Assembly (NCBI GenBank): GCA_002718345.1
Contig: PBDA01000060.1
Span: 1-64,000 of the forward strand
Length of the DNA: 64,000 nt
Direction: 5' to 3'
From: Rhodospirillaceae bacterium
GTDB lineage: Bacteria > Pseudomonadota > Gammaproteobacteria > Steroidobacterales > Rariloculaceae
The translations under genes were made by a program, and so were the position numbers. Below, piece after piece: positions 2,111-53,535 of this stretch. Position 1 is the first letter of the stretch; every line of letters starts with the position of its first letter. A model generated the notes under the pieces. It saw only the letters and a list, made by a program, of their open reading frames with translations, searched no databases and was not told the origin of the DNA.

Positions 2111-3112
2111 TTAGTAAACCTGACAGTCATAGACCTCAATCTGTTCACCTAGCGCTAACCAGTAGCGTTGGTAAGCTGCTGGCCTTGAAAATGTATTTGG
2201 GTCTGTCACTGTCAATTGGTAGTTTAGGCGTGTTTGGTCATCGCTAACGGTAAATATTTCTAGCATCTCGACGGAATTGCTTTGTGGTGTACCAATGTTG
2301 TCAAAGTAGGGCCAGTTAATATGAGTTGTTTTTACGGTCAGCGTGTTTTCATCCAATATCCCAGTTGAATATCCTAGAGGGGATCCACCCTGGTCTAACG
2401 GTGGTGCGGAATCGCCAATATGAATTGTGCGTACAAGGTCATAGAGTTCAGATATAAGAAAAATCTCATGTCCATTATCTACGAACTCAAATGCATGCGG
2501 GTTGCGCATAATTCTTGGCATACCCTCAGGTTCACACCTTTCAGCAAAGTTGTCGACGGGATTCCAATTTTCACGGGCGGCAATTGCTGCAGAAGTAAAA
2601 GGGAAATCCATTATTTGACCAACCCCGCCCGGTGTAGCACTCCAGACTCGGTAAAGGCCACGATTTTCAGCTAAAGCATCTACTAATTCATAGTTAGAAG
2701 TACCTGGAGAAGCAAAACTTTGTTCACCCCAATAAGGTTCAGCTTCACCAGAAAGTAATATTTCCCGACCATTTTCAAGTAATAGGTTAGTTGTCAGAAG
2801 GTCTCTTTCTCGGCGAATAGACGGGCTACCTCGCGCAATAACATGCTCACCCACCGTAAAGACATCACTTGAGACATTACCTCGCTGCATGCTTAGCAGG
2901 TTTGAATGCCCTTCAACCCGCCAAAGTTCTTCCTCTCCTTGTTCATTTTTAACCTTTACGGTAAAGCCAACATGAGGATTTACCCAGTGCACAGCTACTA
3001 GCTCGCCTTCTATTTGCTGGATTTCATACGAATAATGTGAACGTGAGTGATGTGTGTGCACGATTGATGAAAATATCAGTAGAGCTGTTAGTGTTATGGC
3101 GCGCATGATCAT
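2111..3112 (-). CDS. secreted DUF6152-like protein
   Basis: A 333-residue protein with a signal peptide over about residues 1-20 (MIMRAITLTALLIFSSIVHT), followed by a histidine-rich start of the mature chain (HHSRSHY). The next ~100 residues carry the pattern of DUF6152 proteins: a conserved His pair, then VHWVNPHVGFTVKV and WRVEGHS, suggesting a small beta-barrel. The remaining ~200 residues are unfamiliar. The function of DUF6152 is not established. It lies downstream (same strand) of the TctABC transporter genes and converges with the Tat-exported FAH protein with no intervening base. Met3 is an alternative start. Family assignment is by pattern recognition only. Confidence 0.7.
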   Translation of the reverse strand: MIMRAITLTALLIFSSIVHTHHSRSHYSYEIQQIEGELVAVHWVNPHVGFTVKVKNEQGEEELWRVEGHSNLLSMQRGNVSSDVFTVGEHVIARGSPSIRRERDLLTTNLLLENGREILLSGEAEPYWGEQSFASPGTSNYELVDALAENRGLYRVWSATPGGVGQIMDFPFTSAAIAARENWNPVDNFAERCEPEGMPRIMRNPHAFEFVDNGHEIFLISELYDLVRTIHIGDSAPPLDQGGSPLGYSTGILDENTLTVKTTHINWPYFDNIGTPQSNSVEMLEIFTVSDDQTRLNYQLTVTDPNTFSRPAAYQRYWLALGEQIEVYDCQVY

Positions 3113-16420: not shown

Positions 16421-18163
16421 ATGAGCAGTTTTTACTCTAGATTGTTAAACATATTGTTTCTCAATCTATTCAGCGTGCCAGTCTTTGCGCAAAATTTAGA
16501 GGCTTTAGTAGAGCGCGGCGAAGAATTGTATAACTCTGATGTTGGTTGTTGGGTTTGTCATGCAGAAAGTGGAGAGGGTCTAGTTGGACCATCTCTGCAT
16601 TTTGGTCCGACGCCTGCGGATGTATTTGATCAATTAGAGAGTAATCCTGTAATGGGGGTAATCGTCAGCGAAATGAATCCTACTGATGACGACCTCGTAG
16701 CAATCTCAATGTACATTAGAACATTGGCGGATTTGCCTCTGGATGCGCAATTACCCCAGCAGTGGTTAGAGGCTTTGGCTGTTGTGAGGGATAACCAAGC
16801 TGAGGAACTAGACTTTGCAAAGACTCCTCGAGATTTACAAATAGAAGCCATTGAAACGTTTGCCTCTCTGCAGGAAACATGGACGCGCCGGTCAAAAGAA
16901 GGAAGTGTTTGGAGCGAGTATCCGTCTAGAGTTGTAGCTACCTTTGATCCGGGCGAACCAAAATTTCAGCCTGAACCAGGTAAAACCTACTTTTATGAGA
17001 ATATCGGGACTACTAGTTCCCCTTCAGTTTTGTTTGATGGCTATGTTCCCCCAACAAGAAATGGTCTGGTCGTTGGTGATGCAGAAACGATGGAAGTCAT
17101 AGCAAGTTACCATCTACCTGAGAATTTACGATCTGTAGTACACACATCGGCGATGTCCCCAGACGGAAGGTATGCTTACATCGTAGGCCCTAGAGAACCA
17201 ACAGCTGATGGTTCTCCCGATCCAGCAGGTTCTTGGACTATGATCAAGCTTGATGCGATTACTCTGCAGCCAGTGTCACAGATCACTATTGGTGGAAGAC
17301 TTCATCATGGGCAAGTATTTCGGGATAAAGTTTTATTTGATTTATTTGTCAGGGATCCAGATGGATTGGGGCTGTTTTTATTTGATCCCGAAACAGATGA
17401 GGTTATTGGCGGTATTAAAGATATAGATATGGGCGGTTTCATATATACAGTTTGGACCGATAAGGATTATGAATATATTTATGCATTGATGGAGCCCGCA
17501 GGTTATGCTCCCGGACGTGCTACGGGGATGCGTTCAGCGATCGACCTTTATCAAGGCAGACTTATGGCAGTCCGCCCTTTTTGGATTGCTAAAATTAATC
17601 CTGAAACTTGGGAAGTGGAAGCAGAGTATCCAGTGCCAGGGTATCGACCAAACTGGGCAGTAATTGATAATGCTAAAGAATTTATCTATCCAGTCATGAG
17701 TAGTTCAATTGCATCAAAAATGAACATTAATACGGGTGAAGTTATTTGGACCAATGGCACTGGTATTGGTCCTTATGGCGCAGCTTTAACAGCAGATGAA
17801 ACCGAACTTTGGATTGCTGATAAAGGAGAAGCTGCGCATCATCTAGGGCGTACGATTACCATTATTGATACTGAGTCTGGGCACGCAGTAGAAACTCTTT
17901 ATGCTTCATATAAAGCAGACCATGTGCTCTTGTCACCAAATGGTAAAGAGATGTGGTCAACTAGCAATGGTGAGGGGCGTATTTACGTGTATGACGTAGA
18001 GACGAGGGAACTTTTAAAGGTAATCGAGATGCCTGGCAATGGAGATGCACACGGATTAATTTGGGTCCATTATGATGAAAATGGAGAGCCTCGTACCGTA
18101 CGTGATCAAGGAAATTTCCACGGAGGAATTAATCCGGCAGAGGGAGCCATATTGGATTACTAA
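16421..18163 (+). CDS. periplasmic cytochrome c - beta-propeller fusion protein
   Basis: A 580-residue exported protein: signal peptide ending VFA (residue 23), a small mono-haem cytochrome c domain to about residue 110, and a beta-propeller for the rest. The haem site is CWVCH (Cys43, Cys46, His47); the sixth ligand could be Met78 or Met85. The propeller has repeated blades such as SPDGRYAYIVG and SPNGKEMWSTSNGEGRIYVYD. The order haem c domain then propeller, with His241 in VVHTSAMSPDGRY, recalls cytochrome cd1 nitrite reductase (NirS) and NirN, but no haem d1 synthesis genes are present and this is not proof. The strong Shine-Dalgarno GGAGGGAG precedes ATG 16421. It heads a set with SCO and CcdA-like genes. 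Confidence 0.85.
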   Translation: MSSFYSRLLNILFLNLFSVPVFAQNLEALVERGEELYNSDVGCWVCHAESGEGLVGPSLHFGPTPADVFDQLESNPVMGVIVSEMNPTDDDLVAISMYIRTLADLPLDAQLPQQWLEALAVVRDNQAEELDFAKTPRDLQIEAIETFASLQETWTRRSKEGSVWSEYPSRVVATFDPGEPKFQPEPGKTYFYENIGTTSSPSVLFDGYVPPTRNGLVVGDAETMEVIASYHLPENLRSVVHTSAMSPDGRYAYIVGPREPTADGSPDPAGSWTMIKLDAITLQPVSQITIGGRLHHGQVFRDKVLFDLFVRDPDGLGLFLFDPETDEVIGGIKDIDMGGFIYTVWTDKDYEYIYALMEPAGYAPGRATGMRSAIDLYQGRLMAVRPFWIAKINPETWEVEAEYPVPGYRPNWAVIDNAKEFIYPVMSSSIASKMNINTGEVIWTNGTGIGPYGAALTADETELWIADKGEAAHHLGRTITIIDTESGHAVETLYASYKADHVLLSPNGKEMWSTSNGEGRIYVYDVETRELLKVIEMPGNGDAHGLIWVHYDENGEPRTVRDQGNFHGGINPAEGAILDY

Positions 18164-18238
18164 TATTTGTGATTCCAAAAGTTTTTTGAATTTAAGCCTG
18201 AGAATCAAAAAATCTTTGACGGCAAGGTTTGAAATGCG

Positions 18239-18886
18239 GTGAAAATTTTACTAAAACCTATTGAAAAAATAGTATTCGCTGTGTTTGTGGGAGCATTCAG
18301 TCTTGGGGCTTATTCTTATCTCGCTCATTCTCAGCATGTGCATTCTGACATGCCTATGTCAGCAGATAACGCTCATGCCTTACACGCTGACAATATAGGT
18401 GCAGTTCAACCTAGTTTCGTTAGCCCACTGAGCGACATTATCGTTGGCTTTGAGCTCGTGGATCGTCACGGAAACCTTGTTTCAAATGAAGACTTTCTGG
18501 GAGAGTATCTGCTTCTTGGTTTTGGTTTTACCCATTGTCCAAATGTTTGTCCGATGATGGCATTTAATATGGGGAAAGCACTGCGAGATACAGAAGTCAA
18601 AGCAAAAGGTGTTTTTGTGAGCATAGATACTGAACGTGATACCCCCACAATAACAGACGAATATGCTTCAAGATTTGGTGATGATTTAGTCGGTCTTGGC
18701 GGAAGTATTGCTCAAATTAATGCCGCTGCAAATAATTTCAAGGTGAGTTATGCGGTAACAAAGACGCAGAATAACTACATTGTGCAGCACACGTCTAATG
18801 TTTTTCTGATTGATCCGGCAGGAAACCTTGTTGATATATTTGCCTTTTCTGCCACCGCAGAGACTATTGTTCAGGCTATGCGCTAA
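18239..18886 (+). CDS. SCO1/SenC family copper chaperone / thiol-disulfide protein
   Basis: A 215-residue membrane-anchored thioredoxin-fold protein. It starts at GTG 18239 with a hydrophobic anchor over about residues 10-28. The copper-binding motif is CPNVC (Cys100, Cys104) in FTHCPNVCPMM, with His184 in VQHTSNVF. SCO proteins deliver copper to the CuA site of cytochrome oxidase or reduce its cysteines, at the outer face of the inner membrane. A His/Met-rich stretch follows the anchor (HSQHVHSDMPM), which could also bind copper. Its stop overlaps the next start by one base (TAATG), so it is coupled to the CcdA-like gene. No oxidase subunit gene is nearby, so the client may be the cytochrome-propeller protein. 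Confidence 0.93.
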   Translation: MKILLKPIEKIVFAVFVGAFSLGAYSYLAHSQHVHSDMPMSADNAHALHADNIGAVQPSFVSPLSDIIVGFELVDRHGNLVSNEDFLGEYLLLGFGFTHCPNVCPMMAFNMGKALRDTEVKAKGVFVSIDTERDTPTITDEYASRFGDDLVGLGGSIAQINAAANNFKVSYAVTKTQNNYIVQHTSNVFLIDPAGNLVDIFAFSATAETIVQAMR

Positions 18887-20256
18887 TGATTTTTCTAAAC
18901 CGCGCATTACCAATCAACACAATTAAATTGAGTATGTTGCTTTTTTTTGCAGCTGCTATCGCTTGCTCATGGCTTGTTTTTCCTTATTTTGTTCAGGGTC
19001 AGCAACTTTTGCGGGGTGTGGGTGATGAGAGTCGCTTGATTAAAGCAGGTAGCGTTGCTCAATACCTTACGCGAGAACTTATCAAAACCCCTGATTTGGA
19101 AATAACGGCCACATTAGCAACAGACGAGTACTTTCAGTATGTTGACAGAGCTTCAGTCGTTGGGAATCTTCGGCCTGATCGAAATTTAATTTTTTTTGTA
19201 GCGGAAACAATTCATCATGGGGACTTGCCGGCAGAAGTACCATTTGCAAGTCTCAGGGTTGGAGAAGAAGAGTACTTACCAACAGTTTCAGATGGACCAA
19301 GCTTGGTTTCACATCATCGACTGAGTGTTTACAGTTTTCCAAAGCGTGATATTGACGGGAGGTTAATTCCAATTGAAGAAGCTGGACGTATGCGTCTTTA
19401 TGTATCAAACCGTTACATGGAAAGTGATCGTCCTTTGACCTTTGTGGGAAGTTGGGATGCACCATACAGTCTTCCTGATGAATTAAAATCGCGTGCGGAT
19501 ATAACCCCGATTGCGATTCTTGCGTTAGGGGCGGGGTTACTTTCTTCAGTTCTTACACCATGCCTGCTTCAGCTTGTAATAGTTTTTGGTGGTGTTTTAG
19601 CTGGTTTTTCCACAGTGCCAGGACAGTCTTCAGAGGGCACCATGGCCTTGACTCCAGTCATTCGTCGTAAGATTACACAGCTTGCTATTGCCTTTGTGCT
19701 GGGATTTGTTTCTCTTTATGCACTTGCAGGCGCTTTCATTGGGGCCTTAGGTCATCAAGCGCAGCTCGCTTTTTCGGAATATAGTCGACTTGTTGCGGTC
19801 TTATCTGGAGCTATAGTTATCCTTTTGGGATTATGGGTGGGCTTCAGAGGAACGCGAGATTTTGCTTGTCGAATTCCAGATAGAAGGGCTATGGAGTCCC
19901 TTTCAGTGAAAGATACTATAGGTACAGTTTTAACTTCTATGGGTTATGCACTGGGTTGTACCGCATGTTTTGGTGGAGCGATTGTAGCTACTTTAGTTGT
20001 TTATGTGGGTGCGATAGGTAGCGCATCGATCGGAGCTGGAATCATGCTTACTTTCGGTATTGGCGTTGCAATACCGTTCTTACTTTCAGCATATTACATT
20101 TCTAAAATGGACACGATTCTTGTATTTCTAGCTGAGAACTCTAGGTCGTTGAGTTACGCAAGCATGGTTGTAATTATATTATTTGGACTTATTTTAATTA
20201 CAGATAACTTTCATGTGGTCAGTGACATGATTTATCCTTATCTGGGATTAAGCTAG
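18886..20256 (+). CDS. CcdA/DsbD-type membrane protein with a large periplasmic N-domain
   Basis: A 456-residue inner-membrane protein. An N-terminal helix (about 9-32) is followed by about 170 soluble, presumably periplasmic residues that I do not recognise, then a six-helix cytochrome c biogenesis/DsbD transmembrane domain from about residue 210. Redox cysteines: Cys226 in LTPCLLQ, and a CxxC pair Cys358/Cys361 in GCTACFGG, where relatives usually have one cysteine. CcdA/DsbD proteins carry reducing equivalents from cytoplasmic thioredoxin to periplasmic partners. The likely partner is the coupled SCO protein or apocytochrome c upstream. There is no fused thioredoxin domain. Confidence 0.85.
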   Translation: MIFLNRALPINTIKLSMLLFFAAAIACSWLVFPYFVQGQQLLRGVGDESRLIKAGSVAQYLTRELIKTPDLEITATLATDEYFQYVDRASVVGNLRPDRNLIFFVAETIHHGDLPAEVPFASLRVGEEEYLPTVSDGPSLVSHHRLSVYSFPKRDIDGRLIPIEEAGRMRLYVSNRYMESDRPLTFVGSWDAPYSLPDELKSRADITPIAILALGAGLLSSVLTPCLLQLVIVFGGVLAGFSTVPGQSSEGTMALTPVIRRKITQLAIAFVLGFVSLYALAGAFIGALGHQAQLAFSEYSRLVAVLSGAIVILLGLWVGFRGTRDFACRIPDRRAMESLSVKDTIGTVLTSMGYALGCTACFGGAIVATLVVYVGAIGSASIGAGIMLTFGIGVAIPFLLSAYYISKMDTILVFLAENSRSLSYASMVVIILFGLILITDNFHVVSDMIYPYLGLS

Positions 20257-20271
20257 TTAAAGATAAATTAG

Positions 20272-21414
20272 ATGTTTGCTATGAAGTGGCATATTTTCAA
20301 TAGACATTTATTTGTTGTTCTAACTATTTTTCTATTTCCCTTAATGAGCGCATATGCTCAGGTTGATATTTCTAATCCACAGCGATTGATGTTTGTCGCA
20401 GATGCTATAGATCCGATAATTGATGTGATTGATCTGCAATCAAACGAAGTCATTTTCAGGATCGAGACAAAGCAGGTTGTTGATGATCTGGTAGCTACGC
20501 CATTTGCGCCTGTGCTTATCTATACAAACTATGAACAGCAATTGGTAAGCATGTATAACTTAGAGACTAAGGAGCTTGCAAAGGAAGTTATTTTGCCAAT
20601 TGTTCCTCGCCATATGGTGCTTGATACAACCGGCTCAAAAATCGGATTTACAGATAGTGCAGCTGGAGGATTTGTGCTTTTTTCGGCGTATGGCGGACAA
20701 ATATTTTTTGCATTAGAAGATTTTCCACCGACAACAGATGTTCTATTCGATCCTAATGAAGTTGATATCTGGTACAGCAATAGTTTGAATGGAAGTATCG
20801 GTTTAATTGATAGTAATGTTAAACAGACCTTTGAAATAGGAGTAACAGATCAGTCTACTCAAAAACTTAGCTCTCCTAGTAGAAGCCTAGATGGGCGATA
20901 CATTTATGTGGCAAATGAGACTACAGGTGAGATATATAGTGTAAATTCATTTTCAAAGATCGTTTATAAAACATTCAATATAGGAACCAGACCAGCTAGA
21001 CCTTACACTACTCCTGAGGGCGTATTTTTATACATGATGGATAAGGATTCAGGGAGATTTATTTCGATAGAACAAAATCAATTTACTGAGTTTGATAACG
21101 AAATAATTGGTGAAGGAATTGATCTTGTGACTGTTGGTCGTTTTGATCGCATGAATTTATTTGCAAGTTCTGAAAATAGCAACTTCTATATTTATGATAA
21201 CAATAGAAGGTCAGTGATAGAGAATGGTGTATTCAATTTTGTGCCTTTGGGCGCTCAGGGTACAGCAGACGGTCGTCGAGCTTACGTGCCTTCAAGTAAC
21301 AGCCCTGAAATAGCTATGATTGATCTTGAAGATCAACAGATTAAATATATTTCAGCGGGAAATAGTCGAATCGGGGCGTTCACAATTGGACTATCTAATA
21401 ATGTATGTCACTGA
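20272..21414 (+). CDS. secreted YncE-like beta-propeller protein
   Basis: A 380-residue protein with a signal peptide ending about MSAYAQ and then repeated short blades (MFVADAIDPIIDVIDLQSN, SLDGRYIYVANETTGEI, TADGRRAYVPSSN, EIAMIDLED) typical of seven-bladed YVTN/YncE propellers. There is no haem motif. An internal ATG at 20281 is an alternative start. It follows the CcdA-like gene by 15 bases and probably belongs to the same operon as the cytochrome-propeller fusion. The role is unknown: ligand binding, a scaffold or an electron-transfer partner are possible. A short C-terminal NNVCH leaves one cysteine near the end. Confidence 0.8.
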   Translation: MFAMKWHIFNRHLFVVLTIFLFPLMSAYAQVDISNPQRLMFVADAIDPIIDVIDLQSNEVIFRIETKQVVDDLVATPFAPVLIYTNYEQQLVSMYNLETKELAKEVILPIVPRHMVLDTTGSKIGFTDSAAGGFVLFSAYGGQIFFALEDFPPTTDVLFDPNEVDIWYSNSLNGSIGLIDSNVKQTFEIGVTDQSTQKLSSPSRSLDGRYIYVANETTGEIYSVNSFSKIVYKTFNIGTRPARPYTTPEGVFLYMMDKDSGRFISIEQNQFTEFDNEIIGEGIDLVTVGRFDRMNLFASSENSNFYIYDNNRRSVIENGVFNFVPLGAQGTADGRRAYVPSSNSPEIAMIDLEDQQIKYISAGNSRIGAFTIGLSNNVCH

Positions 21415-21577: not shown

Positions 21578-22552
21578 ATGTCCCTACAAGAAAAGTTTGT
21601 CAGTCTAGAATCGCATTTGGCCGATTTGGTTGTTGGTCAAGCCACGCTTTTAAATCGGATGTTAGTGGCGTTACTTTGTGATGGTCATTTATTAGTTGAG
21701 GGCGCACCTGGGCTTGCTAAAACGCGGGCAATTAAGGTGTTGAGCCATAGCTTAGAGGGAGATTTTCATCGTCTACAGTTTACCCCTGATTTGCTCCCAG
21801 CAGACTTGACAGGGACAGAAATTTATCGTCCGCAAGATGGTTCATTTGTTTTTAGAGAAGGACCTTTGTTCCATAATCTGGTATTAGCTGATGAGGTCAA
21901 CAGAGCACCGGCTAAAGTTCAATCAGCTTTGTTGGAAGCAATGGGTGAAAGGCAAATAACAGTTGGCTCAGTAACTTATCCGCTTCCCCAACTATTTATG
22001 GTGATGGCAACTCAAAACCCCATTGAGCAAGAGGGCACTTATCCTCTGCCGGAAGCACAGTTGGACCGATTTCTGATGCATATTTTAGTGGATTACCCAG
22101 ATGCAATTGGTGAGCGGGAAATTTTGAAATTGAATCAGAAAGAGGCAAAACAATCTACTTCAGATTCGGAACTTTTCAAGCCACAAACAACTCTAAAACA
22201 AGCAGAGATTTTAATAGCGAGACAAGAGGTACTAGACTTGCATCTTGCAGAGCCTCTCCAAGAATATATTGTCCAGCTGGTATTGGCGACGAGAGATTGT
22301 GGCCGTTATGGTGATGATCTTGCAGGGTTATTGCAATATGGCGCAAGTCCTAGAGCATCGATAGCACTCGACAGATGTGCAAGAGCTCATGCATGGCTTG
22401 CTGCTCGAGACTTTGTCACGCCAGAGGATGTGCAATCAGTGGCGCATGATGTGCTGAGGCATAGAATTCTTTTGAGTTTTGAGGCTGAGGCTGCAGGAAA
22501 AGCCCCTGATGATATTGTGGATTTGCTTATAGCTAGAGTTGGGGTGCCGTGA
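21578..22552 (+). CDS. MoxR-family AAA+ ATPase
   Basis: A 324-residue MoxR AAA+ ATPase. The Walker A loop is GAPGLAKTR near residue 46, Walker B is LVLADEVNRAPAKVQSALLEAM, sensor 1 is ATQNPIEQEGTYPLPEAQLDRF, and the sensor 2 region is GASPRASIAL. MoxR proteins act as chaperone-like ATPases together with VWA-domain partners. It opens a six-gene operon (MoxR, DUF58, DUF4381, BatA, BatB-TPR, BatD) in which every junction is within a few bases. Its stop overlaps the next GTG start (GTGA). Confidence 0.95.
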   Translation: MSLQEKFVSLESHLADLVVGQATLLNRMLVALLCDGHLLVEGAPGLAKTRAIKVLSHSLEGDFHRLQFTPDLLPADLTGTEIYRPQDGSFVFREGPLFHNLVLADEVNRAPAKVQSALLEAMGERQITVGSVTYPLPQLFMVMATQNPIEQEGTYPLPEAQLDRFLMHILVDYPDAIGEREILKLNQKEAKQSTSDSELFKPQTTLKQAEILIARQEVLDLHLAEPLQEYIVQLVLATRDCGRYGDDLAGLLQYGASPRASIALDRCARAHAWLAARDFVTPEDVQSVAHDVLRHRILLSFEAEAAGKAPDDIVDLLIARVGVP

Positions 22553-23475
22553 GCAATACAGCAGAAACTACTATTGCCTCACCAGCAAGAATAGATTTAG
22601 CAGAGCTAATTGGGCTTAAGCAAGCAGGGGAAGCTCTCAATATAGATGCACTGCGGGTGCGTGCTCTTGATTCGGGGGGCTATCTATCACGAATAAAAGG
22701 CCGAGGGATAGAGTTTGATGAAGCGCGGCCTTATCAGGAAGGAGATGATCTTCGAACTATTGACTGGCGCGTCACAGCACGTACTGGGAAGCCTCATACC
22801 AAAATATTTAGAGAGGAACGAGATCGTCCGGTAATTATTTGGTTGGATTTGCGGCGCCCCATGATGTTTGCCACGCAGGGTGCATTTAAGGCTGTTCGTG
22901 CAGCTCAAGCTGCGGCTATGGTGGCATGGAGTGCCGTTGCAAATGGGGACCGTTTGGGCGGACTAGTTTTTTCTGAGTATGAGCAAGTGGAGCTGCGGCC
23001 ACGCCTAGGGCATCGATCCGCTTTAAATTTTTTTAACACGCTAACCGAGTCAATGTTTTGGGAGCACGAAGAGAGAAATAATGAACCGGAAGGACATCGT
23101 TCATTATTGCGTTTAACACGGGTGGCAAGACCCGGTAGTCAAATATTTTTGCTAAGTGATTTTCGAGGATTGGCTGCTCCCTTTGAACAGCATTTGCGAC
23201 AGTTAGCTAGGCACAGTGACGTATCCCTAATGCAGTTTTTTGACCCTGTAGAAAAACAACTACCGCCACCAGGCAGATATCAGATTGACATGAAAGGACG
23301 TTCTGTTTCTATTGATACTGATCGGCTAGGGGCTCAAGCGGATCATAAGAGACGCTTCCAGGCTATACAAATGCCTCTTGAGGAACTGGCCAAATTTCCA
23401 GGCGTGAAATTATTGGAATTTTCCACTGCGTCAGATCCTTGTCGGCTGCTTAAAAAATACTTTGAATCACGATGA
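22549..23475 (+). CDS. DUF58 domain protein
   Basis: A 308-residue protein starting at GTG 22549, overlapping moxR by 4 bases. The DUF58 signature is clear: KGRGIEFDEARPYQEGDD followed by RTIDWRVTARTG and KIFREERDRPV. The fold is VWA-like, and IIWLDLRRPM stands where a MIDAS would be but lacks the DxSxS pattern. DUF58 proteins always travel with MoxR and are thought to be part of the same membrane-associated machine. The function is not established. Confidence 0.93.
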   Translation: MSNTAETTIASPARIDLAELIGLKQAGEALNIDALRVRALDSGGYLSRIKGRGIEFDEARPYQEGDDLRTIDWRVTARTGKPHTKIFREERDRPVIIWLDLRRPMMFATQGAFKAVRAAQAAAMVAWSAVANGDRLGGLVFSEYEQVELRPRLGHRSALNFFNTLTESMFWEHEERNNEPEGHRSLLRLTRVARPGSQIFLLSDFRGLAAPFEQHLRQLARHSDVSLMQFFDPVEKQLPPPGRYQIDMKGRSVSIDTDRLGAQADHKRRFQAIQMPLEELAKFPGVKLLEFSTASDPCRLLKKYFESR

Positions 23476-23960
23476 ATCCAAACTTTGATCCAACTCAGAT
23501 GCCGCTAAGGGACATTCATCTTCCCGACGCTGTATCGTGGTGGCCAATTGCCTTTGGATGGTGGGTTTTAGCGTCTATCGTAGTTATCTGTTCCATTATA
23601 TTTGTAATTCGTTTTTATATTTGTCGGCATCGAAGAGTGGCTTGTAGAGAAATCCAAAAATCAATAGACGCTATCAACGTGGGACAGGATCCTGTCCTTT
23701 GTGCTCAAGAGGTTTCTACAATCATGAGACGATTTGCTATGACGGTTAATAAACAGCCGCAAACAGTGGCTGGATTAGTGGGAGAAGAATGGCTTTCATA
23801 CTTGGATGAATTGTGGGAACAAAAAGAATTTATTAATGATGAGGGCAGGCGATTGTTATCGGCGCCGTATAAAGTAACAGGCACTTTGGATCTAGAAGAG
23901 TTTCTAAAGATGGCGTCAGTGTGTATTTCCTGGATTAAAGCCCAGCCGGTGAGAATCTGA
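23472..23960 (+). CDS. DUF4381 membrane protein
   Basis: A 162-residue protein overlapping the DUF58 gene by 4 bases (ATGA). The N-terminus PLRDIHLPDAVSWWPIAFGWW followed by one membrane helix (about residues 27-48), then a soluble helical domain, is the DUF4381 pattern always found between DUF58 and the BatA-type VWA gene. The role is unknown; its position argues for a structural part of the Bat complex. Confidence 0.9.
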   Translation: MNPNFDPTQMPLRDIHLPDAVSWWPIAFGWWVLASIVVICSIIFVIRFYICRHRRVACREIQKSIDAINVGQDPVLCAQEVSTIMRRFAMTVNKQPQTVAGLVGEEWLSYLDELWEQKEFINDEGRRLLSAPYKVTGTLDLEEFLKMASVCISWIKAQPVRI

Positions 23961-23962
23961 TT

Positions 23963-24985
23963 GTGTGGAGTTTAGCTTGGTGGTGGGTTCTTCTTGCATT
24001 TCCAGTACCTTGGTTGGTTAGATATTTATCAAAGGCGGACAACGTTGAGCGAGAAGCGGCATTAAAAGTACCAGAGCCTCAAGAGTATGCAGGATTAACT
24101 GGAGGTAGCGCTCAGAGTGGGTTCTCAAATACTAAATTATTAATGCTTTGGACGATATGGGGGTTAGCTTTAATCGCTGCTGCTAGACCTCAGTATTTAG
24201 GAGAGCCTACTTTATTACCGGTAACTGGTAGAGATTTGCTTTTAGCGGTGGATCTTTCAGGGAGTATGGAAGAGCAGGATTTTCAACTTAATGGACAATA
24301 TGTTGACCGTCTTACTGCAACCAAATCAGTTGCTAAGGAGTTCATTGATAGACGTATAGGTGACCGCATAGGGTTAATTTTATTTGGCCGAGAGACATAT
24401 CTGCAGACGCCTCTTACTTTTGATCGTAAGACAGTTCAGACACTTCTTGATGAAGCTATAATTGGTCTCGCTGGAAAAGAAACAGCCATAGGTGATGCCA
24501 TTGGTCTTTCCATAAAGACCCTAGCGGATGCCAATGTGGAGGAGAGCCGGCGAGTATTGGTTCTTCTAACTGATGGTGCAAATACTTCAGGGGCAGTGGA
24601 TCCACTCAAGGCTGCTGATCTGGCCCGGGATCGAGGAATGGTAATTTATTCTATTGGAATAGGGGCAGATGCATTAATGGTCCGATCACTTTTTGGTGTT
24701 CGTCAAATTAATCCTTCTGCTGATCTAGATGAACAGACCTTGACCACGATTGCCGAGGGTACAGGTGGTCGTTACTTTCGTGCACGTGATACAGAGGAAC
24801 TCCAGCAGATATACGCAATATTGGATGAGCTAGAGCCAGCCGCTGATGAAGAAGAAGGGTTTAGACCAGTTGTCCAATATTTTTATTGGCCCTTGGGTTT
24901 GGCAGTAGTGTTGAGTGTCATTTGGGCAATAACGGGTCTTCGCAGAAAAACATCAGTTTTAATGACGGGGGATAGAAATGGGTGA
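23963..24985 (+). CDS. batA: VWA-domain membrane protein BatA-like
   Basis: A 340-residue protein from GTG 23963. Two membrane helices flank a von Willebrand A domain: an N-terminal pair within residues 1-85 (including LLMLWTIWGLALIAAA) and a C-terminal one (YWPLGLAVVLSVIWAI). The metal-ion-dependent adhesion site DLSGS (Asp97, Ser99, Ser101) is intact, followed by LTDGANTSG. BatA is part of the Bat set linked to stress tolerance in Bacteroides and Leptospira; the mechanism is unsettled. It overlaps the next gene by 8 bases. Confidence 0.92.
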   Translation: MWSLAWWWVLLAFPVPWLVRYLSKADNVEREAALKVPEPQEYAGLTGGSAQSGFSNTKLLMLWTIWGLALIAAARPQYLGEPTLLPVTGRDLLLAVDLSGSMEEQDFQLNGQYVDRLTATKSVAKEFIDRRIGDRIGLILFGRETYLQTPLTFDRKTVQTLLDEAIIGLAGKETAIGDAIGLSIKTLADANVEESRRVLVLLTDGANTSGAVDPLKAADLARDRGMVIYSIGIGADALMVRSLFGVRQINPSADLDEQTLTTIAEGTGGRYFRARDTEELQQIYAILDELEPAADEEEGFRPVVQYFYWPLGLAVVLSVIWAITGLRRKTSVLMTGDRNG

Positions 24986-26726
24986 GTTCCATTTTCTTCG
25001 TCCATTTTGGTTATTTTGCTTGCCAATTGGTATCTGGTTGATATGGAAACTAGCAGTAAGAAGTGGAGGCAAAGGTCGCTGGCATGAATTAGTTGATGAT
25101 GCCCTTAAACCTTTCGTACTGACTACGCCTGATTTGAGTTCAAGAGTTCATCATTGGCTAACCGGTGCTGCTATGACTACGTGGTTATTGGCCACCTTAG
25201 CACTTGCCGGGCCTACATGGGAGCGTTTACCTGTTCCTGCTTTTCGTCCTTCCGAAGCGTTGGTAATTTCTTTGGATTTGTCACGATCTATGGATGCGAG
25301 CGACCTACAACCAACCAGATTAACTCAGGCTAAACTTAAGCTTCTATCTCTCTTGGAGCATCGAACCACGGGGCAGACCGGTTTAGTCGTTTTTTCAGCG
25401 CACGCTTTTACAGTAACTCCCCTGACTACAGATACTGAAACCATTTCAGCATTAGTATCAAGTCTCACCAGTGACATTATGCCCAGCCGCGGAAGCTATC
25501 CAGAGGCCGGACTAACTCGCGCAGTTCAAATTATGCGTCAGACTGGTATGAATCAGGGTGAGGTTTTGCTAATGACAGACTCTGCAGTTTCTCCAAGATT
25601 GGAGGATTTGGCACAAGAATTTCGCGATGCTGGTTTCACATTGCATGTAATGGCAATTGGTACTGAAGAAGGTGGGCCAATAGCCCAACCGCGTGGTGGG
25701 TTTCTAACAGACAATGTTGGTGAAGTTGTTGTAAGCCAGGTTGATCACAGGGCTTTGCAGCAATTAGCAACTTTGGGTGGTGGGCGGTTTGTGAGCCTTA
25801 CTCCTGATGATCGGGATTTAGAATATCTGTTTTCGGACTCTTCATCGTCGATCATCGAAAATTCTGATAGTAGCGATTTGCAAACAGATATTTGGCGTGA
25901 TCAAGGGCCATGGCTTTCACTTATATTGCTTCCAATTCTAGCCCTCAGTTTTAGGCGTGGCTGGATTGCTCTATTGGTGATTGGAATTGTTCTGCCCGGC
26001 CAGCAGACAGAAGCACTTACTTGGCAGGATTTATGGTTGCGGCCTGATCAACAGGGTCAAATTGCTTTTGATGTTGAAGAGCACGAGAGAGCTGCTGAAC
26101 TTTTTCAAAACCTAGAATGGTTGGCAGCTGCCCAATATAGAGCTGGCGATTTCGCAGCTAGTGCGTCATCGTTAGAAAATATTGATACAGCGGAAGCTAA
26201 TTATAATCGTGGTAATGCTCTTGCAAGGGCTGGAGCAATTCCACAGGCTATCGAGGCTTATGAACGGGCTATTGAGCTTGAGCCTGAGCATGATGATGCA
26301 ATATTTAATCGTGACCTTTTGTTGGAACAAGAGCAATCAGAGTCGCCGAACCAAGAAGGACAGCAAGGTGGAAATTCAGAGGAGGATTCCACAAATGATG
26401 GGGAGCAAGAATCTCAGGGCGACTCACAACAATCACAGGAGGGGGCAAGCCCTGAAACTGGAGAGGGTGCTGATTCCCAAGACTCGGAAGACCCTGAACA
26501 AGTTGCTGAATCTGATCAGGAGGACTTGATAGAGGGCACACCACTTCCTACTCCTGGAGAGCTTGAAGAATGGGCATCTGAGCAGGCAGCCGATCAATGG
26601 TTAAGACGAATACCGCAAGACCCGGGAGGATTGCTTCGAAGAAAGTTTCTTTATCAATACCAGAGATTGGGAATTGACCAGGATGGCAATTATGTTTGGC
26701 CAGGTGATGAGGAAGAGCCATGGTGA
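24978..26726 (+). CDS. batB: VWA plus TPR protein, BatB-BatC fusion
   Basis: A 582-residue protein combining functions that are two genes (batB, batC) in some bacteria. Residues 1-330 give membrane helices around a VWA domain with MIDAS DLSRS (Asp100, Ser102, Ser104) and LLMTDSAVSP. A TPR segment follows (AEANYNRGNALARAGAIPQ, then AIELEPEHDDAIFNRDLLLEQ, about 410-450). After that comes a strongly acidic, Gln/Ser/Glu-rich stretch of roughly 70 residues (about 450-520), and a short conserved tail (WLRRIPQDPGGLLRRKF) typical of BatC/BatB fusions. It overlaps both neighbours. Confidence 0.93.
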   Translation: MGEFHFLRPFWLFCLPIGIWLIWKLAVRSGGKGRWHELVDDALKPFVLTTPDLSSRVHHWLTGAAMTTWLLATLALAGPTWERLPVPAFRPSEALVISLDLSRSMDASDLQPTRLTQAKLKLLSLLEHRTTGQTGLVVFSAHAFTVTPLTTDTETISALVSSLTSDIMPSRGSYPEAGLTRAVQIMRQTGMNQGEVLLMTDSAVSPRLEDLAQEFRDAGFTLHVMAIGTEEGGPIAQPRGGFLTDNVGEVVVSQVDHRALQQLATLGGGRFVSLTPDDRDLEYLFSDSSSSIIENSDSSDLQTDIWRDQGPWLSLILLPILALSFRRGWIALLVIGIVLPGQQTEALTWQDLWLRPDQQGQIAFDVEEHERAAELFQNLEWLAAAQYRAGDFAASASSLENIDTAEANYNRGNALARAGAIPQAIEAYERAIELEPEHDDAIFNRDLLLEQEQSESPNQEGQQGGNSEEDSTNDGEQESQGDSQQSQEGASPETGEGADSQDSEDPEQVAESDQEDLIEGTPLPTPGELEEWASEQAADQWLRRIPQDPGGLLRRKFLYQYQRLGIDQDGNYVWPGDEEEPW

Positions 26727-28375
26727 CCAAAAGTTCAATTGCTATTTTTTTGCTTGGATGCTTGTTTGTTTTAAGACTTTCAGCGCAGGATTATGTATTG
26801 AATGCTAGTGTTGATCGTCCAACAGTTAATGAAAATGAATCATTTACCTATATATTGCATGTTCAGAGTCAGGTGAATGTTGAGCCAGATTTAAGTCCCT
26901 TGTCTGATGAGTTTGAGATTCTTCAGCGAAGCAGAAACACGAGCATTCAGATGATCAATGGTGCGACTTCACAACTTACTGAGTGGCGCATTCAACTTAT
27001 GCCTCTATCTATAGGGGATTTTGTTATTCCGTCAATACAGTTAGCTGGTGCTTCTTCCAATCCAGTAGCAATAGAAGTATTGCCTGCTGTAGCTGGTGAT
27101 ACGCCTGGCGAAATTTTTTTAGAAGTAGAAATTGCTCCATCGAAAGTTTATGTCCAATCACAGGTTATTTACACACTTAGGCTTTTTCGGGCGGTGAATA
27201 CAGGGCGCTCAAGCCTAACTACACCAGAGATAGCTGGAGTTGAGGCTATCATAGTTCCGCTTGGTGAGGATCGAGAGTATCGAACCTTAAGAAATGATAG
27301 AGATTTTGTTGTTTTGGAGCGTCAGTATGCGATCTTCCCTCAGGTGGCCGGTGAATTGACTATAGAGCCGGTAACATTTGAAGCAGTTGTTATAACAGCT
27401 TCGGGTTTATCAAGTCTTCAGCGTTTTCGCTCAGGTGCTTTGGATTTGTTTGTAGAAAATGCTGTTGCACCACCTCAGGAATACCCAGATGCATCTTGGT
27501 TGCCAGCTAGTGCCCTAACCCTTTCTGAGGAATGGAGCGATGATCCGGAGCAGTTTAACTTAGGTGTTCCTCAGACTCGCACTTTGTTGGTAGAAGCTGA
27601 GGGATTATTGGAAACGCAACTTCCCGAGTTATCAATGCTGCGAACAGAAGGAGTTCGTCAGTATGCTGATCAGCCTGAGTTAAATCGGGAAATGGGGTCT
27701 GGTGGTATTTATGCATCCCGCACAGAGCGCTTTGCAGTAATAGCACAATCACCTGGGGAAATTACAATTCCTGCTGTTGAGTTGCCTTGGTTTAACGTTG
27801 TGGACGGAGTATGGGAAGTAGCTAGTCTAAACCCTAGGGTCTCAATGGTCTTCGACAGTGAATCTACATTTAGTCTTCCGTCAGCAGACCAATTACAGGT
27901 GGCTGATACAGAACTTATTGCTGGCAATGAGCAATTATGGAAAATGATTAGCGCAGTTTTGTTAGGGATTTGGCTTTTAACATTAGCTGTTTTTCGTTTT
28001 GGTTGGATAGATCAAAAATCAATCCCTACGAAAAAAGCTGAAAACATGAAGCCAAATGCAATGCCTAACCAAAGTCAATTACTTAGGGGAATTCGCGCGG
28101 CTTGCGCCAAAAATGATCCACAGACAGCGAGAGATTTATTGTTAGATTGGGCTGAGAAGTTTGTAGTTGGAAACCCTAGAACTTTAGGGCACTTAGCATC
28201 TCAGGTATCAGGAGAATTTTCTGAGGCTATATCTGCTTTGGAAAAAAGCCTCTACGGTCCGGATACCGGAGGATGGAATGGAGCATCTTTAGCGAATGCG
28301 CTTAAAGGACTTAGACAATTAGAGTCAAAGAATAACGATGTAAGTAAAGAGGTATTACAACCCCTTTATAAGTAA
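26720..28375 (+). CDS. batD: BatD-like secreted/membrane protein
   Basis: A 551-residue protein with a signal peptide (IAIFLLGCLFVLRLSAQ), a periplasmic region of immunoglobulin-like beta domains starting with VLNASVDRPTVNENESFTY, one membrane helix near residues 410-428 (MISAVLLGIWLLTLAVF) and a cytoplasmic helical tail. The opening and the W-x-P/E-R-F-A-V block (TERFAVIAQSPGEITIP) match the BatD (BatD-like 'oxygen tolerance') family. It closes the operon, starting 7 bases inside the previous gene. No clear terminator follows. Confidence 0.92.
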   Translation: MVTKSSIAIFLLGCLFVLRLSAQDYVLNASVDRPTVNENESFTYILHVQSQVNVEPDLSPLSDEFEILQRSRNTSIQMINGATSQLTEWRIQLMPLSIGDFVIPSIQLAGASSNPVAIEVLPAVAGDTPGEIFLEVEIAPSKVYVQSQVIYTLRLFRAVNTGRSSLTTPEIAGVEAIIVPLGEDREYRTLRNDRDFVVLERQYAIFPQVAGELTIEPVTFEAVVITASGLSSLQRFRSGALDLFVENAVAPPQEYPDASWLPASALTLSEEWSDDPEQFNLGVPQTRTLLVEAEGLLETQLPELSMLRTEGVRQYADQPELNREMGSGGIYASRTERFAVIAQSPGEITIPAVELPWFNVVDGVWEVASLNPRVSMVFDSESTFSLPSADQLQVADTELIAGNEQLWKMISAVLLGIWLLTLAVFRFGWIDQKSIPTKKAENMKPNAMPNQSQLLRGIRAACAKNDPQTARDLLLDWAEKFVVGNPRTLGHLASQVSGEFSEAISALEKSLYGPDTGGWNGASLANALKGLRQLESKNNDVSKEVLQPLYK

Positions 28376-50665: not shown

Positions 50666-51274
50666 TCAATTTTGCGGCGTAGAAGCTAACAAAGCTCGAG
50701 CTGTCTCTAAATCGATAGCCCCGGTTTCTAAGTCCGACAGTACCTCTTTGAAATGTTGGAGGTCTTCAGAGAGTATCTCTCCTGTATGAACTCCCAGTAT
50801 TCTACCGCTTGTATCAGAAAATACAGTAAAGGGAAGAGCAAAGAATTCAACACCAAAAGAACCAGCGGCATTCATTGCATCAGATTCTCCTACAAGAATA
50901 GGGTAATTAAAATCCATTTCAGTAGCAAAGTTTTCAACTGCCTCGAATTTGTCAATTGCAATGCCAATAACCTGCAAAGGGTAGTCATTGTTTTGATTTT
51001 GAAACTCTTTCAACAAAGGAATTTCTCTCAAGCAAGGTGCACACCAGGTAGCCCAGAAATTTATCACTAGTGCATTTTCGGGCCAGCTTTGTATAGATCG
51101 GGCATCTCCTGTGAGATCAGTAAGGGAGAATTCAGGCAACATGCCTAGTGATTGTCTAGGTTCTATTATTTCGAGCGATTGTATATTTGGAGTTGCTATG
51201 AATGTGCGATATCCCAAATACGCAACTACTGCTATAAAACTTAATATAAGAGTAATGATTGCACTTCGCGCCAT
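50666..51274 (-). CDS. TlpA/ResA-type membrane-anchored thioredoxin-like protein
   Basis: A 202-residue protein with an N-terminal membrane anchor (about residues 5-25) and a periplasmic thioredoxin fold. The redox motif is WCAPC (Cys78, Cys81), with FALPFTVFSD as the cis-proline region and GVHTGEI near the end. TlpA/ResA/DsbE proteins reduce specific periplasmic partners such as apocytochrome c. It is 29 bases downstream of dsbD, which would supply its electrons. Confidence 0.92.
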   Translation of the reverse strand: MARSAIITLILSFIAVVAYLGYRTFIATPNIQSLEIIEPRQSLGMLPEFSLTDLTGDARSIQSWPENALVINFWATWCAPCLREIPLLKEFQNQNNDYPLQVIGIAIDKFEAVENFATEMDFNYPILVGESDAMNAAGSFGVEFFALPFTVFSDTSGRILGVHTGEILSEDLQHFKEVLSDLETGAIDLETARALLASTPQN

Positions 51275-51303
51275 AAAAATTTACCTGTTAACACTAGCTC
51301 ATT

Positions 51304-53535
51304 TTACAACGAAGAAATTTGACGTACATGAGAACTAAATTCTTCTGCATTAACAAACCCAACGAGTTTGTATGCTTGAAGTTCCTCGCCTTCGCGATTA
51401 AAGAAAGCAATGGTTGGTGGGCCATAGCTTGAAAAATATCTGAGTAATGCTTGGTCATTGTCATTGTTTTCAGTGACATCAATTTGCAGCAACATAAAGG
51501 GATCTAGAGCTGTGATAACGTCCCTATCAGGGAATGTGTACCTTTCGTACTCTTTACATGCTACGCACCAGTCTGCTGTAAAGTCGACCATAACAGGCAT
51601 CTGATCATTCGACGCTTGAGTTAAGGCATTTTCTAGTTCTGTGACCGTGGCAATTGGTGCAAAAGACAGCGATGACAAATTTGTATTACTCACTGAACCA
51701 TCAAGGAACGATCTTTGTGGTATTGGGTTAAGAGGGTTGTCCCCGCCTAGAGATACTCCAATAACCATTAGTGCACCGTAAAGACAAGCTATTACCCCTA
51801 GACCTTTACGAAGTCTTTGCCGCGTTGAAGGCGAATTTGGCAAAGCCTCAAACGCACCTAGAAACACCCCTGCAAAAAATACAAGCAGTGCCCATAGGGC
51901 TAGAGTGATGTTTCCAGGCAGGATTCGTTCTAACATCCAGATTGCTAGTCCAAGCATCATAAACCCGAAAGACACCTTAACCGTATGCATCCAGGGACCA
52001 ACTTTTGGTAACAGTTTTCCTGCCGAGGCTCCTAGTACTAGTAGTGGAGTACCCATTCCTAGGCTTAAAACAAATAGTGCGCTTGAGCCACGAAACACAT
52101 CTCCGCTTTGTCCTATAACGGCCAGTGTGGCAACTAGGGGCGGGGCTACGCAGGTAGTTACAATTAGAGCTGAAAGTGCTCCGATGAAAGCTGCACCAAC
52201 AAAAGTGCCTCCCTTTTGTTTGTTTGCTAAGGTCGTTAGTCTATTTTGTATAGAAGATGGCATCTGAAGCTCGAAGAGACCAAACATAGCCATAGCTAAT
52301 ACTACAAAAAGTGTAGCAAACAAAATAAGAATCCAAGGTTGCTGAAAGGCGGCTTGTATTTGCCCTCCTGCAAGCGCTGCTCCAGCTCCAGCAGCTGTAT
52401 AGGTAATTGCCATACCCATCACATATGAGAATGAAAGCAAAAAACCTCTTGTTGGAGTTACCCTTTCTCCTTGGCCAGCAATGAGACCAGAAAGAATAGG
52501 CACCATTGGTAATACGCATGGTGTAAACGCAAGTAGCAAACCGAGGCCATAGAAGATGCCCATAACAGCCCATAAGGGGTAGTTAATAATGACGTTAGCT
52601 AGCCGGTCTTGTTCAGAAACCATTAAAGGTGCCGACTCATTAAGTGTTGTAGCGGCAAACACGCTAGACGCTGGAATGACTAAGTTGCGAAATGCTTCCA
52701 TAATGGGATAGCAAATGCTGTTTACTTTGCAGCCTTGATATTGAGCCTGGAGTTGAATCTCGACTTCATTTGGAGATGCTCGAGAGAACGGAATTTTTGA
52801 CTCAATATAGTCGTAGTAGACTTCTACCTCACCAAAGTATTCGTCCTCTGTGATTTCTCCGTTAGGTAGGCGAGGTGCACCTATCTCAATTGACCCATCT
52901 ACCGCAAACTCGAATTTATCTTTGTATAGGTAATAGCCTGGCTGAATGATCCAACTAACTGTAATTTCATTGGCTTGCTCCACCCGAACATCCATAATAA
53001 ATGCCTCATCAGGAGGAAGAGGTTCATCATTTACATCAGTTGCAGATAAAAAATTAGCGAATATCGAGCCAACACTTTGATTGTCTGAGTTGAAAGTTAT
53101 GAGGTTATTCCAACGTTGTGGCGGATAACATAGACCAATATCCGCGCAGCCTTGAAGTAATAGCTGGAACTCCATTTCATTATGGTTCGTCGATTGTTCG
53201 ATAGGTATATGAATTTGAAATTGGTCACGATATGTTTCCATAACACCAAAAAATTCATCTTCGTGAATTTGTCCGTCTGGAAATTCCGCTTCACCAAGAA
53301 TTACACCGTTTGTAGAGGTTTCGAAACCAAAACGGTCTCGGTATAAGTAGTAACCATTTTGAACTTGGAAAGTTAGCGTAATTTTATTCTGATTCGCTTC
53401 CAATGTATAAGGAAAAGCAGCTTCAGGGCGAAGTATTTCTTGTGCCTCTATTATTTTGCAGGCGAACAAAAACAGGCCAAGTAATATAGCGGATGGCCCC
53501 TTCCAAAATTGAAATTTGTTTGTATTAATACCCAT
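51304..53535 (-). CDS. dsbD: protein-disulfide reductase DsbD with duplicated N-terminal domain
   Basis: A 743-residue protein, against ~565 in E. coli, that passes electrons from thioredoxin to periplasmic substrates. The extra length is a second copy of the periplasmic alpha domain. Copy 1 (about 40-145) has GYYLYRDRF, GEAEFPDGQIHEDEFFG and the Cys130-x5-Cys136 pair in QGCADIGLCYPP. Copy 2 (about 180-285) has GYYLYKDKF, PRLPNGEITEDEYFG and Cys269-x5-Cys275 in QGCKVNSICYP. The eight-helix domain has Cys340 (FTPCVLPMVP) and Cys462 (TTCVAPP), and the C-terminal thioredoxin domain has Cys657/Cys660 (DWCVACKEYE). It overlaps cutA by 11 bases. Confidence 0.95.
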   Translation of the reverse strand: MGINTNKFQFWKGPSAILLGLFLFACKIIEAQEILRPEAAFPYTLEANQNKITLTFQVQNGYYLYRDRFGFETSTNGVILGEAEFPDGQIHEDEFFGVMETYRDQFQIHIPIEQSTNHNEMEFQLLLQGCADIGLCYPPQRWNNLITFNSDNQSVGSIFANFLSATDVNDEPLPPDEAFIMDVRVEQANEITVSWIIQPGYYLYKDKFEFAVDGSIEIGAPRLPNGEITEDEYFGEVEVYYDYIESKIPFSRASPNEVEIQLQAQYQGCKVNSICYPIMEAFRNLVIPASSVFAATTLNESAPLMVSEQDRLANVIINYPLWAVMGIFYGLGLLLAFTPCVLPMVPILSGLIAGQGERVTPTRGFLLSFSYVMGMAITYTAAGAGAALAGGQIQAAFQQPWILILFATLFVVLAMAMFGLFELQMPSSIQNRLTTLANKQKGGTFVGAAFIGALSALIVTTCVAPPLVATLAVIGQSGDVFRGSSALFVLSLGMGTPLLVLGASAGKLLPKVGPWMHTVKVSFGFMMLGLAIWMLERILPGNITLALWALLVFFAGVFLGAFEALPNSPSTRQRLRKGLGVIACLYGALMVIGVSLGGDNPLNPIPQRSFLDGSVSNTNLSSLSFAPIATVTELENALTQASNDQMPVMVDFTADWCVACKEYERYTFPDRDVITALDPFMLLQIDVTENNDNDQALLRYFSSYGPPTIAFFNREGEELQAYKLVGFVNAEEFSSHVRQISSL

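Follow-up and report, generated by a model that had tools for sequence, protein, structure and literature searches.

A four-gene cassette around a haem-fused beta-propeller protein, a putative periplasmic metal oxidoreductase with its own proposed maturation genes

The window analyzed here is a 64,000-nucleotide stretch from a Rhodospirillaceae bacterium (GTDB Gammaproteobacteria; Steroidobacterales; Rariloculaceae; assembly GCA_002718345.1, contig PBDA01000060.1, positions 1-64,000). At 16421-21414 it carries four successive plus-strand open reading frames, genes 1 to 4, at the coordinates given by an earlier sequence-only reading of this DNA (the original prediction). We propose, with a probability of about 0.6, that gene 1 encodes a periplasmic oxidoreductase whose propeller holds a metal site and that genes 2-4 serve its maturation. 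The domain make-up of the proteins, their invariant residues, the conserved linkage of the genes and their co-occurrence are directly established. The genes are as follows.

16421..18163, plus strand: gene 1, 580 amino acids; exported c-type cytochrome domain (about residues 25-105), linker (106-170) and seven-bladed beta-propeller (about 185-575)
18239..18886, plus strand: gene 2, 215 amino acids, GTG start; SCO1/SenC copper/thiol chaperone (PF02630, E 2.5e-36; solved SCO homologues; alignment)
18886..20256, plus strand: gene 3, 456 amino acids; N-terminal transmembrane helix, periplasmic beta-sandwich (about residues 60-195) and CcdA/DsbD-type membrane domain (about 207-456; PF02683)
20272..21414, plus strand: gene 4, 380 amino acids; second exported YVTN-like beta-propeller (sequence, homologue alignment)

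An invariant histidine set in the gene 1 propeller

Conservation in gene 1 was counted over 83 non-redundant aligned homologues. Residues H241, H295, H296, H501, H544, R409, K468, E470, R477, D307, D500, D562, Q563, and W412 are invariant in all of them. Because five histidines and many charged residues are kept without exception, gene 1 appears to represent an enzyme family and not a structural propeller. The original prediction saw gene 1 only as a cytochrome-propeller protein and missed this hallmark, the invariant His/Arg/Lys/Glu set. The relevant positions are listed below.

16547..16561, plus strand: CWVCH haem c motif, residues 43-47 (C43 in 71/71 and H47 in 68/71 rows with letters there)
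16652-16654, plus strand: Met78, candidate axial ligand (74/74 rows with letters there)
17141..17143, plus strand: His241, start of an inner propeller strand (V-H-T-S-x-M-S-P-D-G; 83/83)
17303..17308, plus strand: His295-His296 pair, inner strand of the next blade (G-R-L-H-H-G-Q; 83/83)
17921..17923, plus strand: His501 with invariant Asp500, inner strand (83/83)
18050..18052, plus strand: His544, inner strand (A-H-G-L; 83/83)
18119..18121, plus strand: His567, C-terminal tail past the last blade (D-Q-G-x-F-H; 77/83, otherwise Arg)

A Sec-type signal peptide is followed by CWVCH (C43-H47), the conserved M78 and then the propeller, which bears out the prediction of an exported CxxCH protein fused to a propeller. 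The motif and M78 together mark the N-terminus as a probable c-type cytochrome; 68 of the 71 homologues with letters at that site retain CxxCH. No curated family of Pfam or NCBIfam takes in gene 1; its Pfam scores for Cytochrom_D1 (23.6 bits versus a cut-off of 25.5) and Cytochrom_C (18.4 versus 21.3) are both sub-threshold.

Gene 1 is under extreme purifying selection. Over the last 115 codons, available as a fragment in a sister genome, 48 of 345 bases differ and only 1 of 115 residues; the ratio of non-synonymous to synonymous substitution rates (dN/dS) is ~0.003, an approximate value as dS exceeds 1. In the sister-genome loci L169 and L168 the gene 1 protein is 99-100% identical to that of the window, with DNA identity of ~85-93% for genes 1 and 2 and ~77% for genes 3 and 4. 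A swap of gene 1 between cassettes, hinted at by a large tree and left unresolved by a small one, is not claimed.

Gene 1 was modeled by AlphaFold2 with a mean predicted local distance difference test score (pLDDT) of 89. By our own blade assignment, from inner strands in the DSSP output of the model, the propeller has seven blades. In the model the invariant histidines lie on or beside the inner strands of four consecutive blades, and the other three inner strands present T343, W412, and Y452 in place of His. VIA-align placed seven-bladed YVTN and lactonase propellers at the top, including 6-phosphogluconolactonases. Nitrous oxide reductase came slightly below, by a few units of Z (Z 26-27), in the company of many unrelated propellers, so the fold alone names no function.

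Two other accounts of gene 1 bear on this point. If gene 1 were a haem protein like cytochrome cd1 or NirN, its propeller would bind a modified haem and gene 4 would correspond to NirF. The Cytochrom_D1 score is just under its cut-off, NirN ranked first and cd1 among the top rows in Foldseek, both are cytochrome c-propeller fusions, and the pairing of NirS or NirN with NirF resembles that of genes 1 and 4. However, the Foldseek superposition on NirN has a root-mean-square deviation above 20 Å, the best refined matches are seven-bladed YVTN/lactonase folds and nitrous oxide reductase, and no nir gene is seen among the neighbors. The propellers of cytochrome cd1 have eight blades, and seven inner strands were counted in gene 1. 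We therefore rejected cd1/NirN as an assignment and give this account very little credence. The other account makes gene 1 a non-redox lactonase-like hydrolase or a scaffold, its cytochrome an electron-carrier tag and the SCO and CcdA-type proteins factors for haem attachment only. It draws on the 6-phosphogluconolactonases among the best fold matches and on the gene 1 members that lack the haem motif. We consider it improbable, as five to six histidines of the invariant set lie on inner strands in the model, most members keep the haem domain and the CxxxC motif and His of the SCO protein are intact.

Conserved linkage and distribution of the cassette

Among 58 related genomes, some match to gene 1 was found in 21, with close homologues across the genus and family of the window. 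Four relatives within this genus and family have 10 to 16 matches each, numbers that include contig-end fragments and weak YVTN matches. A sample of the class Gammaproteobacteria gave only short YVTN-type matches outside the window's own genome. A scan of genome contigs yielded 76 gene 1 loci, largely from uncultured Gammaproteobacteria, with others in Woeseiaceae, Porticoccaceae, a Rhodobacteraceae genome, and one Rhodothermales bin. The window's genome itself has at least two copies, the second (locus L189, 3390-3605, contig 14) being cut by a contig end.

The original prediction proposed co-occurrence across genomes as a check on the set. Full-length matches to genes 3 and 4 occur in the identical 13 of the 58 genomes, all of which carry gene 1 (Fisher p 1.8e-10, which overstates independence as the genomes are related); three other relatives with full-length gene 1 lack genes 3 and 4. 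The order gene 1-SCO-gene 3-gene 4, intact or cut by a contig end, is found in the window, in several further genera of its family and in a Porticoccaceae bin (L118). Between genera the flanks of the cassette differ, and what is shared is the four genes plus single genes only. Because the order recurs in other genera and gene 1 of the sister genome is nearly unchanged at the residue level, the arrangement is not due to chance.

The Alphaproteobacteria show a shorter module. Rhodobacteraceae bacterium Alg231_30 has four loci in the order gene 3-gene 4-gene 1 and a fifth with the same genes rearranged; in one of the four (L111) three tandem gene 1 copies stand beside one gene 4. A second alphaproteobacterium (genome G477, locus L187) has the same order, preceded by a porin-like gene and with a divergent LysR-type gene. 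Overall, a LysR-type gene lies upstream on the opposite strand in several alphaproteobacterial loci and a porin in two. Together with the many paralogues, these porin and regulator neighbors fit inducible oxidation of a substrate. No SCO gene accompanies the alphaproteobacterial modules or the gene 3-gene 4 pairs of two gammaproteobacterial genomes. From these SCO-less loci we conclude that the core association is that of genes 3 and 4 with gene 1, and that SCO is a frequent gammaproteobacterial addition. The predicted four-gene set thus holds as a recurring order across genera but not as a fixed unit, given the modules without SCO and the many solo gene 1 paralogues that accompany cassettes in one genome. 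That the helpers are inherited together with gene 1, in the Alphaproteobacteria too, points to a new branch among the metal-propeller enzymes, one equipped with assembly genes of its own.

In the window, the cassette has no oxidase, ccm, or nir gene next to it, as the original prediction held. It did not take in a full-length DsbD (743 amino acids; 51307-53535, minus strand) that lies in the same window apart from the cassette, adjoined by an exported thioredoxin-like protein (together 50669-53535, minus strand). Besides this separate DsbD, the genome encodes a DsbD_TM protein of CcdA size and has two COX1 genes, as well as another SCO gene, which lies beside housekeeping genes. With these copies available, genes 2 and 3 are best seen as extra, specialized ones. 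The exact co-occurrence of genes 3 and 4 and the presence of DsbD, CcdA-like, COX1, and SCO genes elsewhere largely support the prediction that genes 2-4 look dedicated to gene 1.

Other features of the surroundings were also recorded. A MoxR-DUF58-vWA-type operon lies directly 3' of the cassette (21578-28372), an arrangement common to the genus only. A functional tie to this operon or to an upstream monooxygenase was rejected, as these neighbors are kept within the genus and not in other genera. Around the cassette, promoter-like sites lay below shuffled sequences and terminator-like sites ~2 standard deviations above them, giving no clear operon boundary. An origin from plasmids or phages was likewise rejected; plasmids gave five weak partial matches (~25% identity), their targets bearing annotations of cytochrome D1 or YVTN propeller, and phages none. 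A recurrent neighbor cluster accompanies solo gene 1 paralogues (20 of the 41 sequences compared; L042, L043, L046, and others); its representative matches DUF6152, and one member is also present in the window at 2114-3112. Locus L165 (931-2019) encodes a small propeller with His at several blade starts that scores 89 bits against the NCBIfam clade III lactonase-type NosZ model (cut-off 700).

Accessory proteins and a proposed route of maturation

The conserved positions of genes 2-4 are as follows.

18536..18550, plus strand: CPNVC motif of gene 2 (C100, C104), invariant in 9/9
18788-18790, plus strand: partner His184 of gene 2, invariant in 9/9
19213..19317, plus strand: H110 and H143-H144 in the periplasmic domain of gene 3, candidate metal ligands, invariant in 15/15 from Gamma- and Alphaproteobacteria
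19561..19968, plus strand: membrane-domain cysteines of gene 3 (TPC226, C328, GC358xxC361FGG), invariant in 15/15
21406..21411, plus strand: Cys379-His380, the C-terminal residue pair of gene 4, directly before the stop; (V/I)-C-H-end in all full-length homologues listed

Gene 2 has the SCO fold, the CxxxC motif, and the distal His of SCO1/SenC proteins, and its end overlaps the start of gene 3 through TAATG. The predicted SCO protein with CPNVC and His184, coupled to a CcdA/DsbD-type protein, is therefore confirmed by Pfam and by the overlap. For gene 3, the description as a plain CcdA/DsbD membrane protein holds for the membrane half, which matches DsbD_TM/CcdA (PF02683, E 1.3e-8, 34.8 bits versus a cut-off of 27.1) and CcdA structure 5vkv (Foldseek probability 1.00 with E 0.035; VIA Z 8.1); the periplasmic beta-sandwich with H110 and H143-H144 went unmentioned. 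The gene 3 model has a pLDDT of 66 overall and 79-90 over residues 101-190. Fold comparison of this N-terminal domain gave a tie of unrelated beta-sandwiches at Z ~8, among them the copper protein CrdA, which we treat as a lead only. We rejected gene 3 as DsbD proper, since the protein ends with the membrane domain, has no C-terminal thioredoxin-like domain and scores 17 bits against the NCBIfam DsbD model (cut-off 330).

The sequence of gene 4 agrees with the second exported propeller of the original prediction, and Pfam gave no match to it. Its listed full-length homologues all end in (V/I)-Cys-His despite identity down to ~20% (L082, L085, L092, L099, L100, L102, L111, L113, L118, L130, L147, L187), and the alphaproteobacterial proteins mostly carry a Tat-like SRRxFL stretch at their start. 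In an alternative account, genes 1 and 4 would encode two subunits of one enzyme, gene 4 being catalytic or transferring electrons, with genes 2 and 3 alone responsible for assembly. Gene 4 adjoins genes 1 and 3, is never found without gene 1 in the 58 genomes, and could reach the site of a partner with its invariant Cys-His. Yet gene 4 has changed far more rapidly than gene 1 between Gamma- and Alphaproteobacteria (~20% versus 43-53% identity). In L111 a single gene 4 stands beside three gene 1 copies, and a genome rich in gene 1 paralogues can have just one full-length gene 4; both cases suit a helper better than a stoichiometric subunit. We regard the two-subunit arrangement as unlikely.

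In the proposed oxidoreductase, a metal site, most likely of one or more copper ions, would be held by H241, H295/H296, H501, and H544, with H567 as a possible cap. A small substrate would be oxidized in the central channel, and electrons would pass from the channel site to the fused c-haem and on to the respiratory chain. The membrane domain of gene 3 may carry reducing equivalents outward; gene 2 would be kept reduced and deliver copper; and gene 4, with its Cys-His tail, could act as a docking or metal-handing factor. Copper is the probable metal, oxidation the probable direction, and maturation the probable role of genes 3 and 4.

Several observations count against this proposal. Copper is suggested circumstantially, by the SCO neighbor and the His-rich site, and SCO itself is missing from the loci named above. 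The haem motif falls in a gap in 12 of the 83 gene 1 members, and CxxCH is absent in 3 more. The three relatives with gene 1 and without genes 3 and 4 indicate that the set is dispensable for some paralogues. Finally, gene 1 has no family kinship with thiocyanate dehydrogenase (TcDH): we rejected that assignment because hhalign gave a probability of 6.7% over 61 columns and several inner strands lack His.

A more specific version of the proposal, which we hold only tentatively, describes a new family of haem-fused metal-propeller dehydrogenases, expanded in some marine and sponge-associated bacteria to ten or more matches for different substrates and loaded with copper by the beta-sandwich-CcdA protein and the Cys-His propeller. 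The literature searched describes no such copper route. If the proposal is true, the uncultured marine bacteria concerned, of which some are probably associated with sponges, harbor an unrecognized family of respiratory periplasmic enzymes with many paralogues, probably for different substrates. Genes 3 and 4, the latter with its conserved terminal Cys-His, would then offer a direct way to learn how the metal sites of propellers are loaded, a question that is open for methanethiol oxidase and related enzymes. The presence of both cassettes and solo paralogues in a single genome also makes it possible to test whether many enzymes share one assembly set.

Comparison with known systems

Neither Pfam and NCBIfam nor the literature searched yielded a named operon matching the four-gene set, in agreement with the original prediction, which knew of no described system of this make-up. 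The cytochrome cd1/NirN/NirF group resembles it in the fusion of cytochrome c to a propeller and in the accompanying lone propeller, and differs in that gene 1 has seven blades in its model and d1 biosynthesis genes are not seen nearby. Nitrous oxide reductase (NosZ) shares the seven-bladed N-terminal propeller and has a His-ligated copper site, but the 580 residues of gene 1 include no CuA cupredoxin domain and nos genes are not seen nearby. We rejected NosZ for gene 1, as there is no Pfam or NCBIfam NosZ match and its Z is tied with many unrelated propellers.

The proposed site invites a closer comparison with TcDH. A profile of the segment from H241 to HH295 matches TcDH weakly (E 1e-4 to 0.3) and aligns the HH pair with TcDH 'GPDMHTLAI' (chain residue 423), which by our mapping through the chain offset probably corresponds to His482 of Tp-TcDH (PMC6504805). 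The TcDH-like profile used for hhalign was built from five genomes and recovers solved TcDH at 1e-88 to 1e-95. The weak segment match together with the negative whole-profile result suggests that the candidate site is built like that of TcDH, yet gene 1 is not a TcDH. Both have a seven-bladed propeller; TcDH binds copper with ligands on inner strands, in a register that by our blade assignment the gene 1 histidines share, has a cytochrome c as electron acceptor and has copper-handling genes nearby (PMC6504805, PMC9456337). In gene 1, by contrast, Thr/Tyr, Trp, and Tyr take the place of His on three inner strands, the signal is Sec-type and not Tat, and the haem is fused and not separate.

Methanethiol oxidase (MtoX), the closest precedent, is a periplasmic copper enzyme of the SBP56 family with proposed HH+H+H ligands; its operon, conserved in marine bacteria, has a SCO1/SenC gene immediately downstream and encodes MauG (PMC5739008). 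The SCO1/SenC neighbor and the His set are the points of likeness, with copper in gene 1 as a proposal. Gene 1 would work in the manner of MtoX or TcDH and belongs by sequence to neither family. The cassette lacks mauG, the mto operon as published includes neither gene 3 nor gene 4, and no fused cytochrome c of the kind carried by gene 1 is described for MtoX (PMC5739008). The SBP56/methanethiol oxidase family was rejected for gene 1, which gave no Pfam match to it at E up to 0.1. For gene 3, CcdA/DsbD and ScsB-type thiol transporters share the CcdA-like membrane domain with TPC and GCxxC cysteines, whereas the N-terminal beta-sandwich with invariant H110/H143/H144 and the lack of a C-terminal thioredoxin domain set gene 3 apart. 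Because each protein falls within a known superfamily, we place the cassette, provisionally, among metal-propeller redox enzymes that have dedicated maturation genes.

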